Positions 877 to 20,236 of a DNA stretch of 34,844 nucleotides are shown in pieces; positions within the stretch are counted from its first letter, which is position 1; the number at the start of each line of letters is the position of its first letter. Below the pieces are notes generated by a model. The model was given only the letters and a program-made list of their open reading frames with translations. It was not told the DNA's origin and made no database searches. This DNA comes from a bacterium (GTDB lineage Bacteria; UBP14; UBA6098): the NCBI GenBank assembly GCA_023145965.1, contig JAGLDC010000001.1:1-34844 (forward strand), written 5' to 3'. Position numbers and translations under genes: made by a program.

Positions 877-2100
877 ATGATATATATAAAGCTCGCATGG
901 AGAAATCTTTTCAGGAACAAACGCCGGACTTTCATCGCTGGAACGGCGATAGGCCTCGGTTTGGCGGCACTTATTTTCACCGATGCGATGATTATCGGGA
1001 TGCTCGACAATTATATCCATAACGCGACCTCGTCTTTCATGGGCGAAGCGCAAATTCTGAACGAAAATTTTCGCGAGATTCAAGAGGTCGAGTTCACTAT
1101 AAACGAATTCGAGCGGGTTATAGACGGGCTCAAAAACGACCCGTCCGTCGATAAATTCGCACCCAGGATAAGCGCATTCGGAACGATTTCGTCGGCCTCG
1201 TCGATGTCCGGCATCGGTCTCTTCGGCGTCGATCCTGAAAACGAAAAATATCTCTCGATCATCGACGAGGCCGTGTTCGAGGGCGAGTATTTCGAAGGCG
1301 ATAATCCCCGCGATATATTGATCGGAAAAAAACTCGCGGAAATATTGAGTGTCGGTCTCGGAGACAGGGTCATAATAACGAACTCTCGCGCCGGTTCTGA
1401 GCATATAGTCCAGGATTTGTTCAGGGTCTCGGGGATATTCGAATTAGGCGAAAGGGCGATGGACGGCGGCGCCGCTTTTATCAGGCTCGACAAGGCTCGG
1501 GAGATTTTCGGACTCGGCCGGACAGCCCACATTATCGCTATCAAATTCACCGATCCCAAATTCAGTCAGAATAAGGATTTGCCTTTCTGGTCTAAATTCT
1601 CGACCGACGGTAACGAGGCGATATCCTGGAAAGAGATATTTCCACAATTGGTCAGCGTTTTCCAGATGAGCGACCTTTCGCGCGGGATAATGAGCTTCAT
1701 CTTAATGGGCGTAGTGGTTTTCGTGATCCTGAACACCCTGTTTATGTCTCTCTATGAGCGTATGTTCGAGTTCGGAGTCATAAAAGCCCTCGGAACGCGG
1801 CCTTTCGCGATTTTAAGGCTGATGATCTTCGAGGCGGCGGCGCTTTCGATTATCAGCATAGTTATCGGGGCGATAATCGGTATTCTTCTTACTAAAACCG
1901 TCGCCGCAATTGGGATAGATTACAGCGGCATGGAGATGATGGGCTTGACGATTCGCGACAAAATAAGGCCGGTATTAACTTTACAACAATTTATAATTTA
2001 TCCCATAGGTGTTTTTCTTTTCACGATTATAGTGGGGATATTCCCGGCGGTGAGCGCCGCGCGAATGAACCCGGCAAATGCTATGAGAAAAAGCGTATGA
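877..2100 (+). CDS. FtsX/MacB-like ABC transporter permease, type B1
   Basis: Full-length permease of 407 residues. It has an N-terminal membrane helix after the basic stretch WRNLFRNKRRT, a periplasmic MacB-like domain (about residues 45-265), then three C-terminal helices carrying the FtsX signature NTLFMSLYERMFEFGVIKAL. It is clearly paralogous to the permease at 3366-4589: same length, same opening (IYIKLAWRNLFRNKRRT against LYVKLAWRNLFRNKRRT) and the shared phrase GDNPRDILIG. It pairs in the gene order with the type A permease upstream, suggesting an A-B heterodimer like LolC/LolE. A GGGAGA ribosome-binding site precedes the ATG. The ABC exporter assignment is firm; the substrate is unknown. 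Confidence 0.92.
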   Translation: MIYIKLAWRNLFRNKRRTFIAGTAIGLGLAALIFTDAMIIGMLDNYIHNATSSFMGEAQILNENFREIQEVEFTINEFERVIDGLKNDPSVDKFAPRISAFGTISSASSMSGIGLFGVDPENEKYLSIIDEAVFEGEYFEGDNPRDILIGKKLAEILSVGLGDRVIITNSRAGSEHIVQDLFRVSGIFELGERAMDGGAAFIRLDKAREIFGLGRTAHIIAIKFTDPKFSQNKDLPFWSKFSTDGNEAISWKEIFPQLVSVFQMSDLSRGIMSFILMGVVVFVILNTLFMSLYERMFEFGVIKALGTRPFAILRLMIFEAAALSIISIVIGAIIGILLTKTVAAIGIDYSGMEMMGLTIRDKIRPVLTLQQFIIYPIGVFLFTIIVGIFPAVSAARMNPANAMRKSV

Positions 2101-2131
2101 CCTATTTTCCGAATAGGAGGATCGAGCTAAG

Positions 2132-3346
2132 ATGATCTTTAAATTAGCGTTCAGAAATATTATTCGCCAGAAACGCCGAAGCATACTCACGATAGCGACT
2201 ATCGTGGGGGGATTCGCCTTCGGCTCGATGGCTATCGGTATGCGAATGGGCAGTTTCAATATGATAATCGATATGTTCACAAGAGCATATTTAGGCCATA
2301 TTCAGCTTCATGCCGACGGCTATCTCGATCAGCCGACGCTTTATAAAGTGATCGAGGATTACGAGGGGATCGGGGGGGAGCTGGCATCGCTCGATTTCGT
2401 CGAGGCTTGGGCACCGAGGTTGTACGCGGCGGGACTCGTATCGGTCGATGATAAAAGCGACGCCGCGAGTATCATCGGGGTCGATCCGGAGCTGGAAGAA
2501 TCGGCGACGACGTTCTCGGCAAAGATCGAAACCGGAAATAATTTTTCGGATGACCAATCGAATGAGGTGATTCTCGGAAAAGGCCTAATGGAGGCTCTCG
2601 GTGCCGGGATCGGAGACGAGCTTGTGCTCGTCGTTCAGGCAGCCGACGGCTCGATGGGCAACGATCTATATCGAATAATCGGTTCCATCGATGTCGGCAA
2701 TGAAGGCACGAACCGCATGGCCGTATATATGCGCCTCGATGATGCGCAAGAGCTTATGGTGATGCCCGATCGTGCGCATGAGATCGTAGTTATTATCGAT
2801 AATATCAAGAAGCTTGGGAAATATTCGGGGGCAATAAAGAGCAAGCTCGCCGGAAAAGGGATAGAGGTATCTACATGGGACGAAATTAATGTCAATTTAG
2901 CTGAGATGATCGAGTCTAAAGAGCAGGCGCAAGCTGTGATGCAGTTTGTGATAATGCTCATTGTGGCCGTCGGGGTTCTCAATACCGTGCTGATGTCGGT
3001 ATTGGAGCGCACCCGCGAATTCGGGATTTTGAAGGCACTCGGCACAAGGCCTATAAGTATATTCCGTTTGATAATAACAGAATCTACAATGATGAGTCTT
3101 CTCGGTATAATCGGCGGGGCCATTGTCGGAAGTGCGGTCAATTTCGCTCTTTCGAGGGGCGGGATCGTATATCCCGAACCTTATGAGATTGGCGGTATTC
3201 TCGTCGATACGATGAAATCCGAGGTCAACCTTCGGACGATATTCGAACCGGCGATAGCCGTATTTTTTACGGCGCTTATTGTCAGCATTTTCCCGGCATT
3301 ACGCGCCGCAAAGACGGAGCCTGCAAAATCCATGAGATTTCATTGA
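2132..3346 (+). CDS. FtsX/MacB-like ABC transporter permease, type A2
   Basis: Permease of 404 residues with the MacB layout: basic N-terminus (RNIIRQKRRS), first membrane helix at about residues 20-42, periplasmic domain at about 45-270, then three membrane helices with NTVLMSVLERTREFGILKAL. Its second half matches the truncated permease at the left edge closely (AADGS-NDLY-IIG, DAQEL, the FtsX segment, and the MRFH terminus), so the two are duplicates. A strong AGGAGG ribosome-binding site precedes the ATG. It sits 31 bp after B1 and 19 bp before B2. It probably forms a heterodimer with B2 energised by the single ATPase at 4614. Confidence 0.92.
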   Translation: MIFKLAFRNIIRQKRRSILTIATIVGGFAFGSMAIGMRMGSFNMIIDMFTRAYLGHIQLHADGYLDQPTLYKVIEDYEGIGGELASLDFVEAWAPRLYAAGLVSVDDKSDAASIIGVDPELEESATTFSAKIETGNNFSDDQSNEVILGKGLMEALGAGIGDELVLVVQAADGSMGNDLYRIIGSIDVGNEGTNRMAVYMRLDDAQELMVMPDRAHEIVVIIDNIKKLGKYSGAIKSKLAGKGIEVSTWDEINVNLAEMIESKEQAQAVMQFVIMLIVAVGVLNTVLMSVLERTREFGILKALGTRPISIFRLIITESTMMSLLGIIGGAIVGSAVNFALSRGGIVYPEPYEIGGILVDTMKSEVNLRTIFEPAIAVFFTALIVSIFPALRAAKTEPAKSMRFH

Positions 3347-3365
3347 TAATGAAGAAGGAGAAAAA

Positions 3366-4589
3366 ATGTTATACGTAAAACTTGCATGGCGGAATCTCTT
3401 CAGGAATAAAAGGCGGACTATAATCGCCAGTTTTGCCATAGCTTTAGGACTCGCGGCGCTGATATTCATGGATGCCCTCTTCATCGGCGAGGAAAAAAGC
3501 TTCATAGAAGCCGCGACTTCGACCTTCCTCGGCGAGGCGCAGATTACCCATGTGGATTTTCGCAAAAAACAAACCTCCAATTTAACTATATCTAATTTTT
3601 CGGAGACTATCGAAAAGCTCGCGAACGATACTCTCGTCGCGGCTTTCACTCCGCGAACGCAATCATTCGGAACCGTGACCTCCGCCGCAGATGTCCGGGG
3701 TATATCGATCCACGGGATTGCTCCGCAGTCCGAACGCGACCTCTCGATTATCGACGAGGTTATAGTCGACGGCCAATTCTTCGATGGCGATAATCCGCGA
3801 GATATACTAATAGGCGTTAAACTCGCCGAGATCGTCGATGTCGAACTTGGCGACAAGTTAATATTATCCGTGGCTCAAACAAAGACCGGCGACATATCGC
3901 AACAGCTCTTCCGTGTTTCGGGCATTTTCGATTTCGGTGACCGCTCGATGAATTCCGGCGCGGTGTTTATCGGGCTACCGCAAGCCCGTGAGATGCTCGG
4001 GATCGGCGAGACCGCCCATACGATAACCATTAAATTCGTCGATCCGAATATCAGCCGGGACAGCACCGCCGCCTTCTGGTCGAATTACTCGGTCGATTCA
4101 AACGAAGCGATTAGCTGGACGACTATAATGCCGATGATCGCCTCGATGTCGGATATGTTGATCGTCGCTAAAATTTTCATGGCGCTGATCTTGATGGGGA
4201 TCGTGGTTTTCGTGATACTCAATACGCTTTTCATGGCTCTTTACGAGCGCATGTTCGAGCTGGGCGTCCTTCGCGCAGTGGGAACGAGACCGATGGGCAT
4301 CGTAAAATTATTGATATTGGAGGCCGCATCGCTTTCGATTGTCGGAATTGCGATGGGGGTCGTTCTCGGGTTCGGTGTCACCGCACTTATCGCGCACATC
4401 GGTATCGATTTCACCGGAATCGAATTCAGCGGAATCGCGATGCGCGAGAATATTTATCCGGTGCTAAAAGTTTCACAGTTCATTATTTATCCCATCGGGG
4501 TTTTTATATTCACAATTATCGTTGGAATCTATCCCGCAATACACGCCGCTCGAATGAGTCCGGCGAAAGCGATGAAACGAAGTTTTTAA
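3366..4589 (+). CDS. FtsX/MacB-like ABC transporter permease, type B2
   Basis: Permease of 407 residues, paralogous along its whole length to the B1 permease at 877-2100. The N-terminal helix follows WRNLFRNKRRT, the periplasmic domain contains GDNPRDILIG, and the C-terminal FtsX domain contains NTLFMALYERMFELGVLRAV. It ends in AKAMKRSF, matching the NAMRKSV end of B1. The start has an AAGGAG ribosome-binding site just upstream. The ATPase gene begins 24 bp downstream. The A-B-A-B order implies duplication of a two-gene unit. Its substrate and whether it pairs with A1 or A2 are not determinable here. Confidence 0.92.
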   Translation: MLYVKLAWRNLFRNKRRTIIASFAIALGLAALIFMDALFIGEEKSFIEAATSTFLGEAQITHVDFRKKQTSNLTISNFSETIEKLANDTLVAAFTPRTQSFGTVTSAADVRGISIHGIAPQSERDLSIIDEVIVDGQFFDGDNPRDILIGVKLAEIVDVELGDKLILSVAQTKTGDISQQLFRVSGIFDFGDRSMNSGAVFIGLPQAREMLGIGETAHTITIKFVDPNISRDSTAAFWSNYSVDSNEAISWTTIMPMIASMSDMLIVAKIFMALILMGIVVFVILNTLFMALYERMFELGVLRAVGTRPMGIVKLLILEAASLSIVGIAMGVVLGFGVTALIAHIGIDFTGIEFSGIAMRENIYPVLKVSQFIIYPIGVFIFTIIVGIYPAIHAARMSPAKAMKRSF

Positions 4590-4613
4590 CGACGAAAATT
4601 TAAGGAGATCAAA

Positions 4614-5306
4614 ATGAGCGAAAATATCATCCTAACGGAAAATGTTAAAAAAACATACGACGGAAAAGGCGTTCCGGTCGAGGCGGTTCGCGGGGTCGAT
4701 TTAAAAATCGAAAATGGCGAATTCAGCGCGTTGGTCGGGCCGTCCGGCTCCGGGAAGACCACGTTTTTAAACCTGATATCGGGACTCGACACGCCGACCG
4801 ACGGCAAGGTTTGGCTTAATGGCAGGCTTATGTCCGAGATGAGTGGTAAAGAACTGTCCGACTTTCGGCGCGACCATATCGGCTTTATATTTCAGGCGTA
4901 TAACCTGATTCCGGTGTTGACGGTCGAAGAGAATATCGAATACATTATGTTGCTCCAGGGAATCCCGAAGGACGAGCGCCATCGGCGAGTTCTGGAAATT
5001 CTCGAAGAGGTCGGACTCGAGGGATTCGAGGGCAGGGTTCCGCCGAAGCTCTCCGGCGGCCAGCAACAGCGCGTAGCCGTGGCTCGCGCGATGGTCGCGC
5101 GGCCGTCGATAATCCTCGCCGACGAACCGACCGCAAACCTCGACTCGGCTACAAGCGGCGCTCTTCTCGACACGATGCACAAGCTCAATAAAAAAACCGG
5201 GATGACCTTCCTATTCTCGACGCACGACCAAATCGTCATCGACCGTGCGGAACGCGTGATCACGCTCACTGACGGTAAAATATCGAACGACGAAGTGCGG
5301 ATTTGA
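4614..5306 (+). CDS. ABC transporter ATP-binding protein (LolD/MacB type)
   Basis: Cytoplasmic ATPase of 230 residues that would power the upstream permeases. All the motifs of an active nucleotide-binding domain are present: Walker A GPSGSGKTT (residues 42-50), Q-loop in FIFQAYNL (about 92-99), signature LSGGQQQRVAVARA (about 146), Walker B IILADEPT (about 166-173), D-loop NLDS and the switch histidine in FSTHD. The length and the SGLDTPTDG region are typical of the LolD/MacB/FtsE group that works with FtsX-like permeases. It is preceded by an AAGGAG ribosome-binding site and is the only ATPase gene for four permease genes in the visible operon. An orthology call to lolD is not justified without a tree. 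Confidence 0.95.
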   Translation: MSENIILTENVKKTYDGKGVPVEAVRGVDLKIENGEFSALVGPSGSGKTTFLNLISGLDTPTDGKVWLNGRLMSEMSGKELSDFRRDHIGFIFQAYNLIPVLTVEENIEYIMLLQGIPKDERHRRVLEILEEVGLEGFEGRVPPKLSGGQQQRVAVARAMVARPSIILADEPTANLDSATSGALLDTMHKLNKKTGMTFLFSTHDQIVIDRAERVITLTDGKISNDEVRI

Positions 5307-5338
5307 TAAATTATTATAGCTTGAAAAGGGGTGATCGA

Positions 5339-6571
5339 ATGAAGAGCATCGTTTTAATCTCGATTTTATTGACCGTCGTTTTCACTGCTTCCGCCGGAGA
5401 CTTCGGTGTTGGCGGATATTTTAAGAATTTCAATACCGTCGTCTATCCCCCGAAAGTCGAAGGAATATCTCTTCCCGAAATAACCGGCGCATCGAGCTAT
5501 AGAATCAACCTGAAGGCTACTTATTCACCCGCCGATTTCCTTACGATGAAGGTCTCTTACGATCTTATGCCCCGATTCACCGGCGAAATGATGAATCTCC
5601 TCGAAGGCGAAACCGACGAAGAATCCCAAAGCATCGCGAGTTACCGCGTGGGCGACATCACGCGGGTTATTTCGCCAGGCGATTACGACGGCACCGGCTT
5701 CGCGCTCATGCAGAACCTCGATCGCGCCCTGATCGCGGTCTATTTGCCATTCGCGGATATCGAACTCGGCAGGCAACCGATAGCATGGGGCAGCGCGCGC
5801 ATGGTAAATCCCACCGATGTTATCTCGCCGTTTTCGTTCGACGATCTCGATATCGAGGAGCGCCCCGGAGTCGATGCCGCGCGGATTCGAATCCCCCTCG
5901 GCATGATGTCCGAGATCGACGCAGGCTATCTCCCCGGATATAAATTCAATGACTTGCACATAACCGATGCCATCTTCGCGCGCACAAAATTGTATTTCCT
6001 CGAAACGGACATATCCGCGACGGTAATATCATTTTGGGACAACACGCTCTACGGTATCGATTTAGCTCGCGCTATCGGCGGTGCGGGAACATGGATCGAG
6101 GCGGCGCATGTCGAACCACGCGCGGTAGGTTGGCACACTGAGTTCTTTCGCCTCACCGCAGGCGCGGATTATATTCTGGGCGACGGAACATACCTTTTCG
6201 GCGAATACCACTACAATGGCGCGGGCACCGATGATCCCGATAATTACTTAACGAACACCGATAATATTGCCTATAAAGAATGCGGCGTCTATCTCATGGG
6301 AAAGCACTACGCCATGGCCGGCGGCGCGCATCCATTGACGCCGCTTTTAGGCGCTTCGCTGAACTGCATGTGGAATCTGAACGACTATTCCGCGATTTTC
6401 ACGCCGAACCTCGAATACAATTTCGCGCAGGACGTCTATATCTCGCTCGGCGCGAACCTCGGTTTCGGCAAAGAAGAGATCGAGTCGAGCGGCGGCCTAT
6501 CGTTTACCGGCAAATCCGAATTCGGGATATATCCCGACATGTGGTTCATGTCGTTTCGGGTGTATTTCTGA
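5339..6571 (+). CDS. secreted protein, probable outer-membrane beta-barrel of the ABC exporter operon
   Basis: Protein of 410 residues from an ATG preceded by AAAGGGG at a good distance. An upstream in-frame TTG at 5303 overlapping the ATPase stop is less likely, because the internal ATG gives a clean signal peptide (MKSIVLISILLTVVFTASAG). The mature part has alternating hydrophobic strands, frequent aromatic residues and Gly-rich turns, and it ends in SFRVYF. A terminal Phe is characteristic of BAM-assembled outer-membrane proteins. The segment IELGRQPIAWGSARMVNPTD resembles porin-like proteins of the DUF1302 kind, but I did not confirm a family. As last gene of the operon, it could be the outer-membrane partner or acceptor for cargo moved by the exporter. 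That role is inference. Confidence 0.8.
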   Translation: MKSIVLISILLTVVFTASAGDFGVGGYFKNFNTVVYPPKVEGISLPEITGASSYRINLKATYSPADFLTMKVSYDLMPRFTGEMMNLLEGETDEESQSIASYRVGDITRVISPGDYDGTGFALMQNLDRALIAVYLPFADIELGRQPIAWGSARMVNPTDVISPFSFDDLDIEERPGVDAARIRIPLGMMSEIDAGYLPGYKFNDLHITDAIFARTKLYFLETDISATVISFWDNTLYGIDLARAIGGAGTWIEAAHVEPRAVGWHTEFFRLTAGADYILGDGTYLFGEYHYNGAGTDDPDNYLTNTDNIAYKECGVYLMGKHYAMAGGAHPLTPLLGASLNCMWNLNDYSAIFTPNLEYNFAQDVYISLGANLGFGKEEIESSGGLSFTGKSEFGIYPDMWFMSFRVYF

Positions 6572-8749: not shown

Positions 8750-9160
8750 ATGAACAATATATTTACTAAAAAAGAAATAACGCTTTTGTTGTTCATTCTC
8801 GGTGGGCTTGCTTCCGGGTTTGTGATAGACAGCTTTCTCAAACAAGGAGAGAACAATTTCCCTGAACAACAAGCCCCTATTGAAGTTGTTGATGTCGATT
8901 CTTCGATGGTTGAAATGGTCGAAGAATTAACAAAAGCTGATATTATTAAACCGGAACCCTCCGGCCCCGTTGATATCAATCGAGCTTGCAAGGAGCAATT
9001 GCTTCATGTTAACTCGATAGGGCCGGTTCTCGCCGATAGGATTATCGAGGACCGAAAGGCAAATGGCCCATATCATAAACCGGAGGATTTGCTTAGAGTG
9101 AAAGGCATCGGCTCTGTAACTCTTAGTAAAATTAAACCACAGATTATTGTTGAACAATAA
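8750..9160 (+). CDS. ComEA-like helix-hairpin-helix protein
   Basis: Small protein of 136 residues with an N-terminal membrane anchor (about residues 8-27) and a C-terminal tandem helix-hairpin-helix domain (about 75-136). The HhH part shows the ComEA pattern: VDINRACKEQLLHVNSIGP, LADRIIEDRK, GPYHKPEDLLRVKGIG, and LSKIKPQI. ComEA is the periplasmic double-stranded-DNA receptor in natural transformation, pulling DNA through the pilus channel. The anchor-linker-HhH architecture fits that role. It is the first gene of a plus-strand cluster with a pseudopilin and PilM/PilN-like genes, which supports a DNA-uptake function, although ComEC and a secretin are not in view. HhH proteins also occur in other contexts, so function is inferred. 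Confidence 0.88.
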   Translation: MNNIFTKKEITLLLFILGGLASGFVIDSFLKQGENNFPEQQAPIEVVDVDSSMVEMVEELTKADIIKPEPSGPVDINRACKEQLLHVNSIGPVLADRIIEDRKANGPYHKPEDLLRVKGIGSVTLSKIKPQIIVEQ

Positions 9161-9176
9161 AACAACTGGAGGACTC

Positions 9177-9659
9177 GTGAACCACAAATCTGGGATTTCT
9201 CTTTTAGATGTTATCATCTTGATACTTATCGTCGGTGTAATTGCCGCATTGATCGTCCCAAAAATGAAAAAGAATGAAATAGAAGAAGCCGAAAAGGAAT
9301 GCCATGCGCGTATGGAAACACTGAATTCGGCTATGGTAGATTTCTTTTCGACCTATGGAGATACATCTCTCCTTCATGCTTCTGATGAACCTGCCGAACC
9401 GGAAACAACTGAGGTTGCTGAAGAGGACGCAAAGGATAATGAAAATGAAGAAGAGACTGTCGAAAAAGCCAAAGTCAGGCTATTCACAAACGATATCGAG
9501 CTTCTAAAGCCGTTTTTACCAGAGGATTTTATAGCCAAATGCCCAATCGACGGCAAGGAATATATTATTCATGCACGCGATTCTATCTTTTATTCGATTT
9601 CTTGTCCTAGCGGCCACGGGCAGGTTATCAAAGGGCAGTTTACTTGGGAAGAAGAATAG
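9177..9659 (+). CDS. type IV pilin-like/type II pseudopilin
   Basis: I start this at GTG 9177 because CTGGAGGA lies just upstream. An upstream ATG at 9147 overlaps the previous gene and would only lengthen the leader. From GTG the protein has a short basic leader ending in Gly (NHKSG), then ISLLDVIILILIVGVIAALI, the hydrophobic N-terminal helix of a prepilin. The helix then turns amphipathic and charged (KKNEIEEAEKECHAR), as in GspG/PilA proteins. Unusual points are Ile at +1 and Asp instead of the near-universal Glu at +5. A very acidic, Thr/Glu-rich segment lies at about mature residues 60-90. The C-terminal part carries two Cys-Pro motifs (KCPIDGKEY and SCPSGHG), seen in pseudopilin-like proteins. 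About 160 residues, probably processed by a prepilin peptidase encoded elsewhere. Confidence 0.82.
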   Translation: MNHKSGISLLDVIILILIVGVIAALIVPKMKKNEIEEAEKECHARMETLNSAMVDFFSTYGDTSLLHASDEPAEPETTEVAEEDAKDNENEEETVEKAKVRLFTNDIELLKPFLPEDFIAKCPIDGKEYIIHARDSIFYSISCPSGHGQVIKGQFTWEEE

Positions 9660-9695
9660 GAGTTCTAAACGGGAAAGAAGGCAAAAAATAATACC

Positions 9696-10727
9696 GTGTC
9701 GGATAAAAAAGATCTAAAAAAATCCAATAAGGATAAGCCCAAACCGGCGCTTAAAGCACCTCAGATTAATATACCAGAGGGTTTCGATCTTACTCACAAA
9801 CGAAACGCCTTAGGTATTTCAATCGAAGAGGATAGAATCATAGCTCTTCAAGCTCTGATTAGTGGAAAATCTATTTCTATTAGTTCGGCTGACGAAGAAA
9901 AATTTCAACCGGGAATCGTAAAAAATGGCCGTATTGAAAATCCTGCTGCAATAGTGACAGCCTTCAAAACCTTGAAAAAACGCGCTAAATTTAATGCGTA
10001 TGTGGCTAGTATAAATATCCCTTCCCACTTTTTTACACTGAAGGAATTCGATACACCAGAGGGCTATTTCGTCGAGGATAACGATAATCTTCAATGGGAG
10101 ATGGGACAGCATATAAATGATAATCCCGCTTCATATAAGATACGCTCGGTTCAGACTGGTGAGGGAAAAATCGGTCAAAAGATCCTTGCTGTCGCCTCTC
10201 GCACTGGTTTTCTTGATGAGAGGATGAGACTTCTTATTTCTTTAGGTTTATCGCCTTGTGCCATCGAACCGGATATTATTGCGGCTTATAATGCGCTGTC
10301 TGTTATATTCATCGATTATCCTAGCGATAAATTTTTAATTGTCGATATATCCGCGCCTTTCACGAGTTTCTGTATGGTTGTGAATGGCGATTTTATTCCG
10401 GGAGGGTTGTTCCATACACCTAAAGAAGTCATCTCGGGCGAGGATGGTGCATTCGAGTTGGCCCAAGTTATGACACAAGCCTTCAATAAGCATTTCGCTA
10501 TTCATGGATATGTCTTAGGCAAAAAAAGCCCGGAGATGCTTATTGCAAGTGGTTGTTACGCCGAAGCATATCTTGTTTCTCAAATGGGGAATTATATGAA
10601 TATGCAGGTTTTCGATACAGATCCATTTAAAAGTTCGTGGGTAGATATTTCTAAACTTAAAACAACTGTTCCATGGCCAAGATTGATTAAACCTTTTGGG
10701 ATGGCGATGAGATCGCCTTATGTCTAA
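9696..10727 (+). CDS. PilM-like actin-fold pilus assembly protein
   Basis: Protein of 343 residues with a GTG start. After a Lys/Pro-rich N-terminal tail (about residues 1-25) it shows the PilM pattern: LGISIEEDRIIALQALI, paired strands, VASINIPSHFFTLKEF, QWEMGQHI, a middle segment SLGLSPCAIEPDIIAAYNAL, then FLIVDISAPFTSFCMVVNGD, and a C-terminal LIKPFGMAMRSPY. PilM is a cytoplasmic actin-like protein that binds the N-terminal tail of PilN and links the inner-membrane alignment complex to the assembly motor. The gene overlaps the next one by 8 bp, and the next product is PilN-like, so the PilM-PilN pair is conserved in order. No assembly ATPase gene is in the window. Confidence 0.8.
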   Translation: MSDKKDLKKSNKDKPKPALKAPQINIPEGFDLTHKRNALGISIEEDRIIALQALISGKSISISSADEEKFQPGIVKNGRIENPAAIVTAFKTLKKRAKFNAYVASINIPSHFFTLKEFDTPEGYFVEDNDNLQWEMGQHINDNPASYKIRSVQTGEGKIGQKILAVASRTGFLDERMRLLISLGLSPCAIEPDIIAAYNALSVIFIDYPSDKFLIVDISAPFTSFCMVVNGDFIPGGLFHTPKEVISGEDGAFELAQVMTQAFNKHFAIHGYVLGKKSPEMLIASGCYAEAYLVSQMGNYMNMQVFDTDPFKSSWVDISKLKTTVPWPRLIKPFGMAMRSPYV

Positions 10728-11694
10728 GTTTCTTACAATAAAGCTTATCGAGCCTCAGGCCGCACCGATTCTTGTTGAACAGGAAGAAGGCAAGAAAAAG
10801 AATCGATGGATTATTATGGCTATAGCCGGCGTATTCGTTGTAGTCCTGGCGATATTTGCATGGAACTATCTTCCAAAGATTATACCAAAACTTGCTATGA
10901 AACACTATGCCCGTTCGGAGCAAACTCCGAGAATCGGGCATGGTAGTGATAAGGCAAGTAATAATCAAGGTGAAACCACACCGAGGATACCTCAGGATCA
11001 AAAACTTCCTGTAACCGAAAAACCTCCGGAAAAACCACAACCCCCAAAAAGACTGTTTCCGGAGTTAATGCCATGGCACCGAAGGACCTCGCCCTTAATC
11101 GAAATTATTAGGGCGGTTCAGGGGGATGTTTTCTCGATGACAACCGGTTCGGAAGGTGTGATATTTATCACTGGGGTTCTTCCTATGGATGTCGATATTC
11201 AGACTTCAAGCCCCATTTTTAGAACTAATGCAGTTATGATCGAGAATATAATCGATTTTAATATCGTCCGAGGAAAAACAGAATACATTCTCGGAGTTAA
11301 TTTGGCTCCCGTTTTATCGTATAGCGGTAGCGAAACTCCAATTCCGCCATATCTGCGCGGAGCTATACTTCGGGAGATCGATTCCCTCGCTAGAAGTTGC
11401 GGGCTTTCTTCCGTAAATACAATTGCGGTTGGAAGAGAGGAAATTGCAGGCGGAAGTCGCTATTTAATTGGAGTCAAGGGGATTGGAAGTTACAATAAGA
11501 TAAATGGTTTTGTTAAAGCTATCGAGAACTCGGGCAAAATGATAGAAATATCTCGATTCTCCCTCGATGGGATTAATGATAAACCTCTGATAGAGGATAC
11601 AATCAAAGCGGGTTTTATTATAAGAGCTTATGATATTAAAATATCACAAACAACAGCGCTCGTTAAAAACCCGGAAAAAACAGCTGTTTTATGA
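10720..11694 (+). CDS. PilN-like bitopic membrane protein
   Basis: Protein of 324 residues. A short cytoplasmic N-terminus (FLTIKLIEPQAAP) resembles the PilM-binding tail of PilN. It is followed by a basic patch (GKKKNRWI), one membrane helix (about 30-50) and a periplasmic region. That region has a Pro-rich linker (about 80-110) and a folded domain (about 115-320). The periplasmic part is longer than in typical PilN (near 200 residues) and might combine PilN and PilO roles; this is inference. The gene overlaps the PilM-like gene at its 5' end and shares an ATGA overlap with the large envelope gene downstream, indicating strict co-translation. The identification rests mainly on position and topology. 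Confidence 0.6.
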   Translation: MSKFLTIKLIEPQAAPILVEQEEGKKKNRWIIMAIAGVFVVVLAIFAWNYLPKIIPKLAMKHYARSEQTPRIGHGSDKASNNQGETTPRIPQDQKLPVTEKPPEKPQPPKRLFPELMPWHRRTSPLIEIIRAVQGDVFSMTTGSEGVIFITGVLPMDVDIQTSSPIFRTNAVMIENIIDFNIVRGKTEYILGVNLAPVLSYSGSETPIPPYLRGAILREIDSLARSCGLSSVNTIAVGREEIAGGSRYLIGVKGIGSYNKINGFVKAIENSGKMIEISRFSLDGINDKPLIEDTIKAGFIIRAYDIKISQTTALVKNPEKTAVL

Positions 11695-14492
11695 ATAGAG
11701 GCAATGGTTTTTATATAGTCATCTTGCTTCTTTTTTCCTTTGTTGCTATTTCAGAGCAAGTCGATATTGATTCGTCGGATAGCGGTTTTTTCCCTTATGA
11801 AAACAATATTTTGTTGGATGGAATGCCTGCAAATGGGATCGGTTCTTTTGCTATGCCGCAAAGACCCGCATTATTGAACCCCGCAGGGCTTGCCTCTGTT
11901 CCACAAACCCAAGTTGCTTGTGATTTTCAAAGATATTTTTGGGGCATTGGAGACAACCTGTCCTCGGGGAATATATTGTTTGTTCATCATGTCCTAAACC
12001 GAGGTTTTGGCGCTGGCATCGGAATATTCAATGGCGGAATGGTTTCTACCCAGTCCTATTCATTACACTATGCCCAGAGATTGGGTAGGGCGAGAAATCC
12101 TTTTATCGAAACGAATCGAATAGGTCTTTTTGGTGGTGTGACAGCACGTTTTCGTCGAAGAGCATATTCCGAGAATGATTTCCATTTAGGCGATTCGGGC
12201 GACCCATTGTTCATTGATGGGTATAGTTCTACTGCTTTTTCTTTTGGATTCGGTTTCGTTTACCGCAAACCGAGTTATTCTCTCCAGTTCTCCTGCGATG
12301 ACCTTAATCGTCCGAATTTTGCGCTGGAAGCCGGCGAAAAGGATAGGCTTCCGATGGAGTTACAAGTTGGAGGAGAGTTTTTCCTTCCTTGGGAGGGTAT
12401 CCGCATTGCGCCTTCTCTGAACTATCGTTCTGAATACGGTGATTTTGCGTCCGATATTGACCCAAACATAGCTGTTCGTAGGGATTTTATGGACGGCAAA
12501 CTCGAACTTGGCTTTTTTGCAGGAAGATGGGCTTTCGGGCTTGGGGCTAATTATTATCTAGATTTGAATACTGGACCCGGTGCGAGATATGAAATATCTC
12601 AACCACTGACTGGGATAGGTGTTCCATCGCATAGGGTTTCTGCTTCATACAGATTCCAACCACCACCGCCAGCATATCCTGATCTCACGGTCAAAAACAT
12701 CGAAATTGAGGGAAATCCAATAATCGATGCTTCACTTATTGCTCGTATAGAGGTTAGGAATAAAGGCATTAGAAACGCCGAAGATGTTCGAGTATCTCTG
12801 TTTTCTGATGGAAGGCAATATAAGACTCAACAGATTCAGACTATCAAGCCGGATGAAAATGGTATTATTGAATTCGAGTTAATTCGCGAAGTTTCGGGCG
12901 AGTTCGAGCTGCTAGCTCGTGCCGATGACTCTGGTAATTCATACTCCCAAATCGATGGCCATATTCTAGAACTTGACGAAACTAATAACGAATTGAAGAA
13001 AAGATTTTTCATTTATGACCGTCCTAAAGCCTCACTCGATATTGATCTTGAGCTCTTGAGGCTTACTCAAGAGATAATTATTACTGAGGACGAACCGGTA
13101 ATACCTATTGTATTTTTCGAGGCGGAATCCGCAGCTGTTGCCGAGAGATTCGATAACCTCATTTCCAATGTGGCTGAGCGAATGGTCGATAATCCAGATG
13201 CGGTTCTCTATTTAAGCGGTTATTATTCAACGGACGATCCTCAAGGTGAACAGGGGCAAATTCTTTCGAGCGAACGCGCGCGAAATGTGGCACATGCGAT
13301 AATTGAAGTCGAACCCGAATTAGCCGATAGGATAGAAATTTCGACAGAGCATAGAAGATCTCATGCCAGGGCCGAGAAGGAAAAATTTGAGGGAACACGT
13401 CTTGGAAAAAAATATACCGCAGAGGAGAACCGCCGGGTCGAAATGAGTGTCCAGCCAGGCGAACCTAACGAATGGTTTCTTAAATCTTATGCTTTAAACA
13501 GCCTCGACATGGAGGAACTTCAGAAGCGTTTATACGAGAATCCGCTTTTCGAGATAGTTGCTATTGCGCCCACTCTCGATTCAGCATATGCTATCGAGAG
13601 AGAACTAGCTAAGCTTGTTGGGCAGAGATTTGCTGGAAGAGTGTATTCTCGCGAGGATAAAGACGAGAACCCCAAGATTATTATCACTGCCAGTGGGATT
13701 CTTTATAAACCGAGGGCTTTTGAGATCCCTGATGAAGAACTCAAAATTGAACCCGGATATGGTGAAAGTAAATTTAATATTGAAACCGAGGGTGGAGGCA
13801 AAATTGTTGGATCGCGCCTTATAATAGAGAACAGCAGTGGAAAGACATACAGAGAATTCAGCGATAAAAAAGGCCTATTGAAAACAGTAACATGGGATTG
13901 GACTATACCCGGCGACGGTCTAGTCGACCCCTCAGATTGCTATATAGCTTATGCTAAGATTGTCGATGAATTTGATCAGGAGTCGGTTACAAAGCCAGAG
14001 ACTCTTACTGTAGAGCTCACAAATAGTAGAGATATATCTGGCCGTCTTATTCTGGTTCAATTTGCTTTTGCCGGTGCTTTTGGTGAACCTGATTATGCTT
14101 CTGTGAGAATGGAGCAATTGACGCGAGAAATAGTTGGGAAAGTCCAAAGAGATGGGTGGCTCGATGTTGTCATAGGCGGACACACCGATGTTGTTGGTGT
14201 CGAAACTGGGAATCTCAAGCTTTCACAGCGTCGTGCCGAGGAACAGTTTCTTACTTTTAAAGAATATATAATGAAGATTCTTAATATGGACACCGAAGGT
14301 CAACTCGAGTCATGGCTCGCAGAGAATAATTCAACTATGTCCGCTCGAGGTTATGGATCTTCGAGGTCATATGCTATCACGCGAGGCAAAGGCTCGGATT
14401 CTTATAAAATCATTCATGGTAATAATGATCTTCCTGAAGGCCGAATAATCAACCGGAGGGTCGAGGTCGAATTTACACCCAGGATAGAATGA
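11691..14492 (+). CDS. large envelope protein: PorV-like barrel, CARDB, two OmpA-like domains
   Basis: Protein of 933 residues with a signal peptide (about 1-22). Domains in order: a PorV/UPF0164-like beta-barrel region with the opening RPALLNPAGLASVP (about 35-325); a CARDB-like adhesion domain starting PDLTVKNIEIEGNP (about 330-450); a first OmpA-like domain (about 465-588, with LSSERARNVAHAI and ENRRVEMSV); a linker domain (about 590-685); an Ig-like segment (about 695-780); and a second OmpA-like domain (about 782-933, with GGHTDVVG, LSQRRAEEQ and NRRVEVEF). OmpA-like domains bind peptidoglycan, so the protein probably anchors an outer-membrane barrel to the cell wall at two sites. The gene directly follows and overlaps the PilN-like gene, in the position where pilO/pilQ often lie. 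No secretin domain is visible. Confidence 0.78.
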   Translation: MNRGNGFYIVILLLFSFVAISEQVDIDSSDSGFFPYENNILLDGMPANGIGSFAMPQRPALLNPAGLASVPQTQVACDFQRYFWGIGDNLSSGNILFVHHVLNRGFGAGIGIFNGGMVSTQSYSLHYAQRLGRARNPFIETNRIGLFGGVTARFRRRAYSENDFHLGDSGDPLFIDGYSSTAFSFGFGFVYRKPSYSLQFSCDDLNRPNFALEAGEKDRLPMELQVGGEFFLPWEGIRIAPSLNYRSEYGDFASDIDPNIAVRRDFMDGKLELGFFAGRWAFGLGANYYLDLNTGPGARYEISQPLTGIGVPSHRVSASYRFQPPPPAYPDLTVKNIEIEGNPIIDASLIARIEVRNKGIRNAEDVRVSLFSDGRQYKTQQIQTIKPDENGIIEFELIREVSGEFELLARADDSGNSYSQIDGHILELDETNNELKKRFFIYDRPKASLDIDLELLRLTQEIIITEDEPVIPIVFFEAESAAVAERFDNLISNVAERMVDNPDAVLYLSGYYSTDDPQGEQGQILSSERARNVAHAIIEVEPELADRIEISTEHRRSHARAEKEKFEGTRLGKKYTAEENRRVEMSVQPGEPNEWFLKSYALNSLDMEELQKRLYENPLFEIVAIAPTLDSAYAIERELAKLVGQRFAGRVYSREDKDENPKIIITASGILYKPRAFEIPDEELKIEPGYGESKFNIETEGGGKIVGSRLIIENSSGKTYREFSDKKGLLKTVTWDWTIPGDGLVDPSDCYIAYAKIVDEFDQESVTKPETLTVELTNSRDISGRLILVQFAFAGAFGEPDYASVRMEQLTREIVGKVQRDGWLDVVIGGHTDVVGVETGNLKLSQRRAEEQFLTFKEYIMKILNMDTEGQLESWLAENNSTMSARGYGSSRSYAITRGKGSDSYKIIHGNNDLPEGRIINRRVEVEFTPRIE

Positions 14493-14514: not shown

Positions 14515-14543
14515 TTGACAAAAGGAAATAATAACCTTATAAT
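14515..14543 (+). promoter_or_regulatory. consensus sigma70-type promoter for secDF
   Basis: A perfect TTGACA (14515-14520) and a perfect TATAAT (14538-14543) are separated by exactly 17 bp, in the gap between the large envelope gene and secD. The predicted transcription start is near 14550, giving a leader of about 70 nt ending in a strong AAGGAGGAG ribosome-binding site before ATG 14622. Such an exact match is rare by chance. Confidence 0.85.
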
Positions 14544-18216: not shown

Positions 18217-18436
18217 AACTGAACGCCATAGCGCTTTTCGCCGAATCCTCAAATCTGGTAACATTCTGACTCGAATATAGATACGATCTTATAGTAAAAC
18301 AAATTATAACCTTAAATCTTTCCTAACCTAAATTATTCGAATATCAAGTATCCATACAATTTTATAATTAAAATTGGTTGCAGAAATTTGGATAATCATA
18401 GATATTATTTATAAGTGTTAACTTATTAGGATGAAA
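18217..18436. other. AT-rich intergenic leader upstream of the PorE-like gene
   Basis: About 220 bp of AT-rich DNA between the terminator and the PorE-like gene. It must hold that gene's promoter, but no convincing -35/-10 pair was found. No ORF or structured RNA was recognised. Confidence 0.35.
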
Positions 18437-20236
18437 ATGAGCAATAGAATAAATTATATAATTACATTTATCTGTATTTTAACGACGGTTTTATCGGCGC
18501 GTCTGCCGGTTATATTTTTAAAGGGCAAGCAATATCTCGAAAAGGGACAATATAAAGAGGCTCTAGATATTTTTGAACAAGTTATCGATATGGAAAATAT
18601 TGAGAGTCGCGATAAATTGAGAGTTAAAAGAGAGATGGTAACAGCCTACATAGGTATCAAGGATTGGGATTCTGCTGCCCGAGAGTTGAACGCGATCCTT
18701 GAAGGAGTAAAAGATTCTAGAAAAAAAGCCGTTTTTGAAGAGTTGCTATCGATAGTCTCGGCTCCGGAGGACCCTGCTGTTAGAATAATAAACCTAGGGG
18801 CTAATGTGAACAGCTCATACGAAGAGCTCGCGCCGGTCATTTCCCCCGATGGTGATATGCTTTATTTTATAGTCGATGGGAATCCTCAAAGCGAAGGAAA
18901 GCAAGATATTTATTACTCGCAAAGGAACGAAAATGGGGAATGGGGTAAGGCCGCTAATATAGGGAAACCACTCAATACAAATTGGCACGATGGTATTCTT
19001 TCAATTTCCCCAAGTGGAACCTCGGCGCTTTTAGCGGGGGTGTATGAAAGGAATGGAAGTAAAGACAGCGGTTTTAGCACAGCCAATATCTCACGTGGTA
19101 TTTGGCGCGAACCTGTAGCGCTCGATATCGCAGATTATTACAATAATAACCGCTTAACAAGCGCATTTATGGCATCGGGTGGTAATGTATTATTTTTAGC
19201 GCTTGAAAGGAACGGAGGTTTCGGCGATTTGGATATTTATATCTCGCGAGCTGTGTCCGAGGGTTCAGGGGGAGCAAAATGGAGTTCGCCTCTCAATCTT
19301 GGTAAAGATATAAATACACGCGGAACCGATGGGACTCCTTTTCTGGCCCCCGATGGTAAAACGCTATATTTCTCCTCGAATGGTAGAGTAGGTCTCGGAA
19401 GCCAGGATATGTATAAATCAGAAAGGCTGGATGATTCGTGGAAAAGATGGTCTAAGCCCGTGAATCTGGGCAAACAGGTAAACACCGCTGGATGGGATGC
19501 ATATTATACAATCCCTGCGAAGGGAGATGTCGCATATTTTGTTTCGAGCGCTGATGGTGGGTATGGCATGAGCGATATTTGGATGATTACGCTACCCTCG
19601 GAGGCGCGACCGGGTGCTGTCGTTACAATATCCGGTAGAGTGATGGAACCGGATTCAACGCCGGTAGAAGCTCAAATATCATGGGAAAAACTCACGACCG
19701 GAGAGAATATCGGGGCGGTTATGAGTAATGATCTCACAGGGGAATACCTCATTGTTTTGCCTGTGGGAGAGGCATTCGGTTATGTTGCAGAAAAAGAAGG
19801 ATATTTACCGGCAAGTGCACATCTCGATCTTATAGAGGCGGAAGCCTATAGCGAGATGCACCATGATATTTTTATTTCACCAATTCAAAGGGGTGCACAG
19901 ACTGTTCTTAAAAATGTATTTTTTGACTTCGATAAAGCGATACTCAGGCCGGAATCGGTAGGCGAGCTTAATCGCGTGAAGACAATTTTGGACGAAAATA
20001 AAAGTCTCGTAGTAGAGATTGCCGGACATACGGACAGCCTTGGCACTTTCGAGTATAACAACGAACTATCGGCAAAAAGGGCCCAGGCCGTTGCCGACTG
20101 GCTAATTGAAAATGGTATAGATAAAGAAAGAATCGAGGTTCGTGGTTATGGTGAAAGCAATCCTATATCTGAAAATTCTACCGAGGTCGGACAACAAGAA
20201 AACAGGAGAGTTGTTTTCGAAATAATCGATTTGTGA
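18437..20236 (+). CDS. PorE-like lipoprotein/envelope protein: TPR, PD40 propeller, regulatory-like domain, OmpA
   Basis: Protein of about 600 residues. ATG 18437 is preferred over ATG 18431 because AGGA (18428-18431) then has normal spacing. An N-terminal signal sequence (about 1-22) is followed by TPR-like helices (about 25-110, GKQYLEKGQYKEALDIFEQV). A PD40/WD40-like propeller follows (about 115-390), with repeats such as APVISPDGDMLYFIV, TPFLAPDGKTLYFSS and SDIWMITL. Next comes a carboxypeptidase-regulatory-like domain (about 395-485, GRVMEPDSTPVEAQISW), then an OmpA-like domain (about 490-600, NVFFDFDKAILRPES, GHTDSLG, LSAKRAQAV, GYGESNP, ENRRVVFEI). This order matches PorE of the type IX secretion system, which links that machine to peptidoglycan. 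Similar proteins also occur without T9SS, so PorE function is not proven. No lipobox Cys is seen. Confidence 0.88.
   Translation: MSNRINYIITFICILTTVLSARLPVIFLKGKQYLEKGQYKEALDIFEQVIDMENIESRDKLRVKREMVTAYIGIKDWDSAARELNAILEGVKDSRKKAVFEELLSIVSAPEDPAVRIINLGANVNSSYEELAPVISPDGDMLYFIVDGNPQSEGKQDIYYSQRNENGEWGKAANIGKPLNTNWHDGILSISPSGTSALLAGVYERNGSKDSGFSTANISRGIWREPVALDIADYYNNNRLTSAFMASGGNVLFLALERNGGFGDLDIYISRAVSEGSGGAKWSSPLNLGKDINTRGTDGTPFLAPDGKTLYFSSNGRVGLGSQDMYKSERLDDSWKRWSKPVNLGKQVNTAGWDAYYTIPAKGDVAYFVSSADGGYGMSDIWMITLPSEARPGAVVTISGRVMEPDSTPVEAQISWEKLTTGENIGAVMSNDLTGEYLIVLPVGEAFGYVAEKEGYLPASAHLDLIEAEAYSEMHHDIFISPIQRGAQTVLKNVFFDFDKAILRPESVGELNRVKTILDENKSLVVEIAGHTDSLGTFEYNNELSAKRAQAVADWLIENGIDKERIEVRGYGESNPISENSTEVGQQENRRVVFEIIDL

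Follow-up and report, generated by a model that had tools for sequence, protein, structure and literature searches.

The five genes packed on the plus strand between positions 8750 and 14492 of the window, by which we mean the whole 34,844-nucleotide stretch analysed here, encode a second system built from type IV pilus components alongside the canonical pilus of their host, an uncultured bacterium represented by a candidate-phylum (UBP14-like) MAG with an assembly of 2.5 Mb that is 96% complete. At slightly less than even odds (a rough probability of 0.45), we propose that their products form an inner-membrane complex that derives from the pilus, builds no filament and works with the type IX (SprA/PorP-type) secretion machinery. 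All five open reading frames are present and run, from 5' to 3', in the order ComEA-like protein, pilin-like protein (hereafter PPIL), PilM2, PilN2 and a barrel-CARDB-OmpA protein; the last three genes overlap by 8 and 4 bp, which bears out the tight packing at the 3' end noted in an initial sequence-only reading of this DNA. For the ComEA-like protein and the barrel the family assignments held up well, for PPIL and PilM2 they were weak but right, and for PilN2 none was obtained.

The first gene (8750..9160, +) codes for a ComEA-like protein with an N-terminal membrane anchor and a helix-hairpin-helix pair (Pfam HHH_3, 1.8e-17; TIGR00426, the ComEA repeat, 4e-11). It is the sole short HHH_3 protein of the studied genome, and most genomes of the class likewise have no short ComEA besides the cluster copy. 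PPIL (9147..9659, +, likely starting at the GTG at 9177) has a prepilin-type N-terminus with Gly-1 and an Asp at position 5 (GspG-type pilin N-terminus, 7e-6), and its profile matches pilins in the PDB (best 2.8e-4). Its C-terminus carries a conserved signature, CPxDGxxYI...CPxGHGxV..W in a 16-member alignment, which recurs outside the class and is lacking from the ordinary pilin near the pil operon of the same genome. Within the class Gly-1 and Asp5 are mostly retained, Gly-1 being lost in f3; several relatives outside the class are devoid of the acidic residue 5 or of the entire prepilin motif. By its sequence, PPIL is pilin-derived. A contig scan with a reduced PPIL alignment gave matches in UBP14-like records only.

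PilM2 (9696..10727, +) is a PilM paralogue with a degenerate nucleotide site. TIGR01175 matches it at 8e-8, below the curated cut-offs; its membership in the PilM family is settled because a profile built from 16 related sequences matches solved PilM structures at 2.7e-23 (3jc8) and 1.7e-20 (5eox). The Asp of the GxDIG motif, the Lys of the ATP motif and the GG of the adenosine motif are each present in 10/10 canonical PilM proteins, as against 0/19, 2/19 and 1/19 PilM2 proteins, respectively. In Thermus PilM, ATP binding depends on K26, but interaction with the traffic ATPase and its stimulation do not (PMC6325625); by our reading of the motif, this residue probably occupies the same position as the Lys lost in PilM2. 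Phylogenetic analysis recovered PilM2 as one lineage, with a support of 100/100, against the canonical PilM proteins of the same class. The PilM2 proteins from outside the class lay among canonical PilMs with no resolved placement in the first tree, and on the PilM2 side with a support of 94/91 in the best one, which had a third outside sequence added and fewer long rows; this is suggestive of their belonging with PilM2, at a support short of the firm level. Taken together, the loss of the ATP-site residues and that of the PPIL hallmarks in several lineages make a working pilus base unlikely.

The PilN/PilO-type protein PilN2 (10720..11694, +) was recognised from an AlphaFold2 model and Foldseek searches, there being no family match. 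The model (mean pLDDT 74, mostly above 90 in the last periplasmic domain) predicts a short cytoplasmic tail and a single TM helix, joined by a linker to two alpha/beta domains. Structurally it comes closest to the PilO proteins of Pseudomonas and Myxococcus, at modest Foldseek E-values (top match 2rjz, E 1.8e-3, probability 1.0); Amuc_1100 and a T2SS membrane protein of the pullulanase type rank lower. By sequence, canonical PilO is matched weakly; with the canonical PilN profile, the alignment is confined to the N-terminal motif. The tail bears an INLLP-like motif, which reads IKLIEP in the window and INLY or IKFN in relatives; Thermus PilN binds PilM through its N-terminus (PMC6325625).

The last gene (11691..14492, +) encodes a 933-aa protein that had been taken as PorV-like. 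Its barrel domain (residues ~73-321, 14 predicted strands) instead belongs with PorP/SprF (PorP_SprF, PF11751, 7e-13, exceeding the cut-off), and is followed by a CARDB Ig domain (332-412), a degenerate OmpA-like domain (455-590), an Ig-like domain (676-780) and a C-terminal OmpA peptidoglycan-binding domain (785-930), with matches of 5e-11 for CARDB and 2e-8 for OmpA. A whole-chain Foldseek search returned mostly unrelated multi-domain beta proteins, the meaningful matches being CARDB (3idu) and outer-membrane barrels. The barrel family shows an unusual expansion in the class, with about ten matches per genome (range 8-17, some partial), among which the cluster-type barrel forms a separate clade (SH-aLRT 99). 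In the studied genome, PorP-CARDB-OmpA paralogues on contigs C8 (L076:1352-7173) and C51 (L077:6991-9720) adjoin giant proteins (1743 to 2231 aa) with T9SS-type C-terminal domains.

PilO, PilP, the secretin, the assembly ATPase and the platform are all absent from the cluster. The sequence-only reading had remarked on the lack of PilO, secretin, ATPase and platform; all of these but the platform are found elsewhere in the genome. A complete canonical pilMNOPQ operon with its own PilM, PilN, PilO, PilP and the one secretin of the genome lies on contig C37, pilB and pilT lie on C58, and comEC lies on C60. The suggested search of the genome thus recovered pilB, the secretin and comEC, and did not find PilC, the pilT gene sitting at a contig end; nearly all other genomes of the class have exactly one PilC, and here the platform gene probably sits in a gap between contigs. 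Canonical pil operons accompany the cluster in every genome inspected for them. The presence of pilMNOPQ, pilB and pilT, with one PilC in relatives, means that the cluster is not the organism's pilus machine. Two further GspE/PilB-like ATPases (L012:10795-13068 and L013:7052-8737) are encoded at loci unlinked to pilus genes. In the studied genome comEC is next to a gene for a PorU-like sortase (L078:278-6481), an association not repeated in the other comEC loci inspected.

The gene order is strongly conserved in the class, whose members have been deposited under UBP14 or Zixiibacteriota, among others. PPIL, PilM2 and PilN2 stand side by side and in this order in 16/17 genomes, the missing one being 59% complete. 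At its two ends the five-gene order is less constant: ComEA is linked in 14/16 (it is absent from the cluster in f3, with two genomes, and lies elsewhere in the genome in G006), and the barrel directly follows PilN2 in 11/16. The barrel orthologue lies away from the cluster in two genomes (G012 and G015) and was not found in three f4 genomes (G007, G010 and G013); hence, the barrel is not obligatory. The conservation of the cluster is beyond chance. The strong linkage of the genes in relatives, together with the separate PilM lineage, establishes the cluster as a real second system, and the sequence comparisons indicate an old, vertically inherited module with a deep paralogue lineage.

SecDF genes follow the cluster in the window and in G001, are nearby in G010, and are close to sprA in G006. 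A perfect match to the sigma-70 promoter consensus (TTGACA, 17 nt, TATAAT; 14515-14543, +) lies between the cluster and secD, and so secDF is probably transcribed separately. Further along, 4 kb downstream of the cluster, is a gene for a TPR-PD40-OmpA protein of the PorE/CHU_0125 type (18431..20236, +; NCBIfam CHU_0125 1.2e-74 and PorE 2.1e-69, both below curated cut-offs), a possible partner of PorP-type proteins that is linked by proximity only. Upstream, the window holds a row of three genes for FtsX/LolC-type permeases and, after them, one for a LolD-type ATPase (877-5306, +); in canonical Lol systems the number of permeases is one or two. The LolD-type gene overlaps by 4 bp with one for a 422-aa protein (5303-6571, +) having no Pfam or NCBIfam match.

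A search with the PPIL profile over 386 genomes revealed a related locus containing PPIL in six genomes outside the class, from five families; the matches in G317, G031, G119 and G261 were discarded, having proved to be normal pilins or pilM operons. In all six loci these genes are followed by rsmD and coaD, which were identified by eye from their sequences. The fullest, on a single 5.0-Mb contig of G073, has the order sprA-comEA-PPIL-PilM2-short PilN2-rsmD-coaD, with PilN2 shrunk to the tail and TM helix. G021 shows sprA, an M28 peptidase, comEA, PPIL, a protein in the PilM2 position, rsmD and coaD; having no Pfam match and a weak profile match only (10.5% probability, E 0.003), this protein was not counted as PilM2. 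In G289 the 3' end of sprA is followed by comEA, PPIL, rsmD and coaD, in G070 and G344 the order is PPIL-PilM2-PilN2-rsmD-coaD, and G152 has PPIL-rsmD-coaD; thus, PPIL occurs in G289 and G152 without PilM2 or PilN2. Accordingly, sprA precedes the comEA-PPIL pair in 3/5 of the outside families, directly in G073 and G289 and with the one peptidase gene between in G021. The SprA of G073 is recognised by the SprA_N model (2.4e-44) and shows 32% identity over 1,994 aligned positions to that of the studied genome, which the SprA proteins of G021 and G289 also match. The presence of the same genes beside sprA in other phyla suggests that pilus parts have been reused in another envelope machine.

Within the class, SprA is found in 14/17 genomes, including 9/9 of those at least 90% complete, and was not detected in G004, G008 and G014, which are incomplete and carry the cluster; none of the class has sprA adjacent to the cluster, such adjacency being seen in the three outside genomes only. 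As for cargo with type A/B C-terminal domains, three proteins of the studied genome, including a giant protein beside a barrel paralogue, match TIGR04183 over the cut-off, and matches to TIGR04131 are below it. GldM (PorM) scored over the cut-off in 0/17 genomes (best E 0.04) with a model that derives from Bacteroidota and may miss distant forms. In Bacteroidota, PorP-like proteins and PorV are 14-strand barrels of the FadL family; they bind cargo, which they are proposed to take over from SprA, and PorE presumably links PorP to peptidoglycan (PMC9143113). A 2016 survey placed the T9SS only in Bacteroidota (PMC4793230), and our literature search found no paper combining SprA, ComEA and type IX secretion.

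The sequence-only reading had left a choice between a DNA-uptake and a secretion machine; of the two, secretion gains support from the PorP/SprF barrel and from sprA beside comEA-PPIL in three outside families. In the proposed complex, PilM2 would dock on the PilN2 tail, while PilN2, PPIL and ComEA would build a periplasmic stalk that the barrel protein might fasten to both the outer membrane and peptidoglycan. The complex would then position or energise SprA/PorP secretion where PorM/GldM is undetected, with a traffic ATPase conceivably borrowed, perhaps PilB or one of the two orphan GspE-like ATPases. This secretion role accounts for the sprA and PorP links, for the retention of the cluster without comEC and for the loss of the pilin and PilM hallmarks. 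The wider proposition, that the pilin/PilM/PilN/ComEA complex is integral to SprA-based secretion in several phyla and stands in for the PorL/PorM motor, so that type IV pilus parts were recruited to type IX, is rather doubtful. Against a role in secretion, rsmD and coaD are neighbours outside the class too, showing that neighbours can be unrelated housekeeping genes, and adjacency alone cannot therefore decide the matter; further, ComEA is the expected DNA receptor, comEC is usually present, and G289 and G152 have PPIL with neither PilM2 nor PilN2.

The main rival is DNA uptake through ComEA, which we regard as less likely, if the strongest of the competitors. Here, ComEA would receive periplasmic DNA, PPIL with PilM2/PilN2 would be a competence-specific variant of the platform acting on the shared PilB/PilC/PilT and PilQ, ComEC would translocate the strand, and the barrel and sprA would be mere neighbours. 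Such a module would explain ComEA, packed against PPIL in the class, paired with it outside and usually the only one of its genome, as well as the frequent comEC, which occurs in 13/17 genomes of the class (the studied one included; not found in G009, G011, G012 and G015) together with canonical type IV pilus genes. However, three of the genomes without detectable comEC (G011, G012 and G015) keep the cluster and its ComEA, and all three have sprA. Moreover, in f3 it is ComEA that moved off while PPIL, PilM2, PilN2 and the barrel stayed together, and neither PorP-type barrels nor sprA are known as competence genes.

Less probable still is an alternative type IV pilus or type II-like alignment subcomplex, in which PilM2, PilN2 and PPIL would assemble a short pseudopilus on the single PilC, with ComEA as a GspK-like cap and the barrel as an added outer-membrane anchor. 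The homologies to PilM, PilN/PilO and pilins fit this, both sets could share the one PilC platform of each genome, two additional GspE-like ATPases are at hand, and in Thermus a PilM defective in ATP binding still binds the traffic ATPase and, with PilN, stimulates it (PMC6325625). Yet several of the variants are ill-suited to a filament, namely PPIL without the prepilin Gly-1 in f3 or, in several outside genomes, without the acidic residue 5, the PilN2 of G073 with its two remaining elements, and the solitary PPIL of G289 and G152. The original proposal of a compact machine in which the barrel takes over from the secretin has very little left in its favour beyond the overlap of the barrel gene with pilN2 at the cluster end and the outer-membrane fold, and in its replacing form it is refuted by the secretin-containing operon on C37, the barrel being moreover one member of a protein family with some ten representatives per genome and without an orthologue in three genomes that have the cluster. 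What probability these readings leave goes to other roles.

With the PilMNOPQ alignment subcomplex the cluster shares the PilM fold, a tail resembling a PilM-docking one, a PilO-like periplasmic domain and a pilin-like partner, but it has no PilO, PilP, PilQ, ATPase or platform of its own, its PilM nucleotide site is degenerate, and the canonical operon is present besides. PilM2 recalls GspL of type II secretion, a PilM-type domain without an intact ATP motif, and the ComEA helix-hairpin-helix weakly resembles GspK (PF03934, E 0.14); unlike in that system, PilM2 and PilN2 are separate genes, the genome has a single secretin, and there is no second GspF platform (one per genome in relatives). 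The type IX PorP/SprF, PorE and SprA/Sov set is echoed in the PorP_SprF barrel and in the SprA and T9SS-type CTD proteins of the genome, and the wall-anchoring job of PorE would fall to the OmpA domain of the cluster barrel; the differences are the fusion of barrel, peptidoglycan-binding domains and CARDB in one chain, the undetected GldM and the linked PilM/PilN-type genes. Finally, the Thermus DNA translocator (PilM/N/O, ComEA, ComEC) likewise combines a PilM-PilN pair with ComEA and a pilin-like protein, whereas the present cluster is separate from the canonical pil operon, lacks PilO, has a barrel rather than a secretin, and includes a PPIL that is partly non-pilin.

Even if the cluster were a competence module, its PilM/PilN paralogue pair, which is vertically inherited and has a degenerate ATP site, would apparently not have been described before; it can be traced through the distinctive C-terminal signature of the pilin-like protein. 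Descriptions of the T9SS have restricted it to Bacteroidota, with PorL/PorM as the motor; a pilus-derived platform serving SprA elsewhere would, if true, connect two unrelated lineages of secretion systems and explain how SprA functions in the absence of its known motor.
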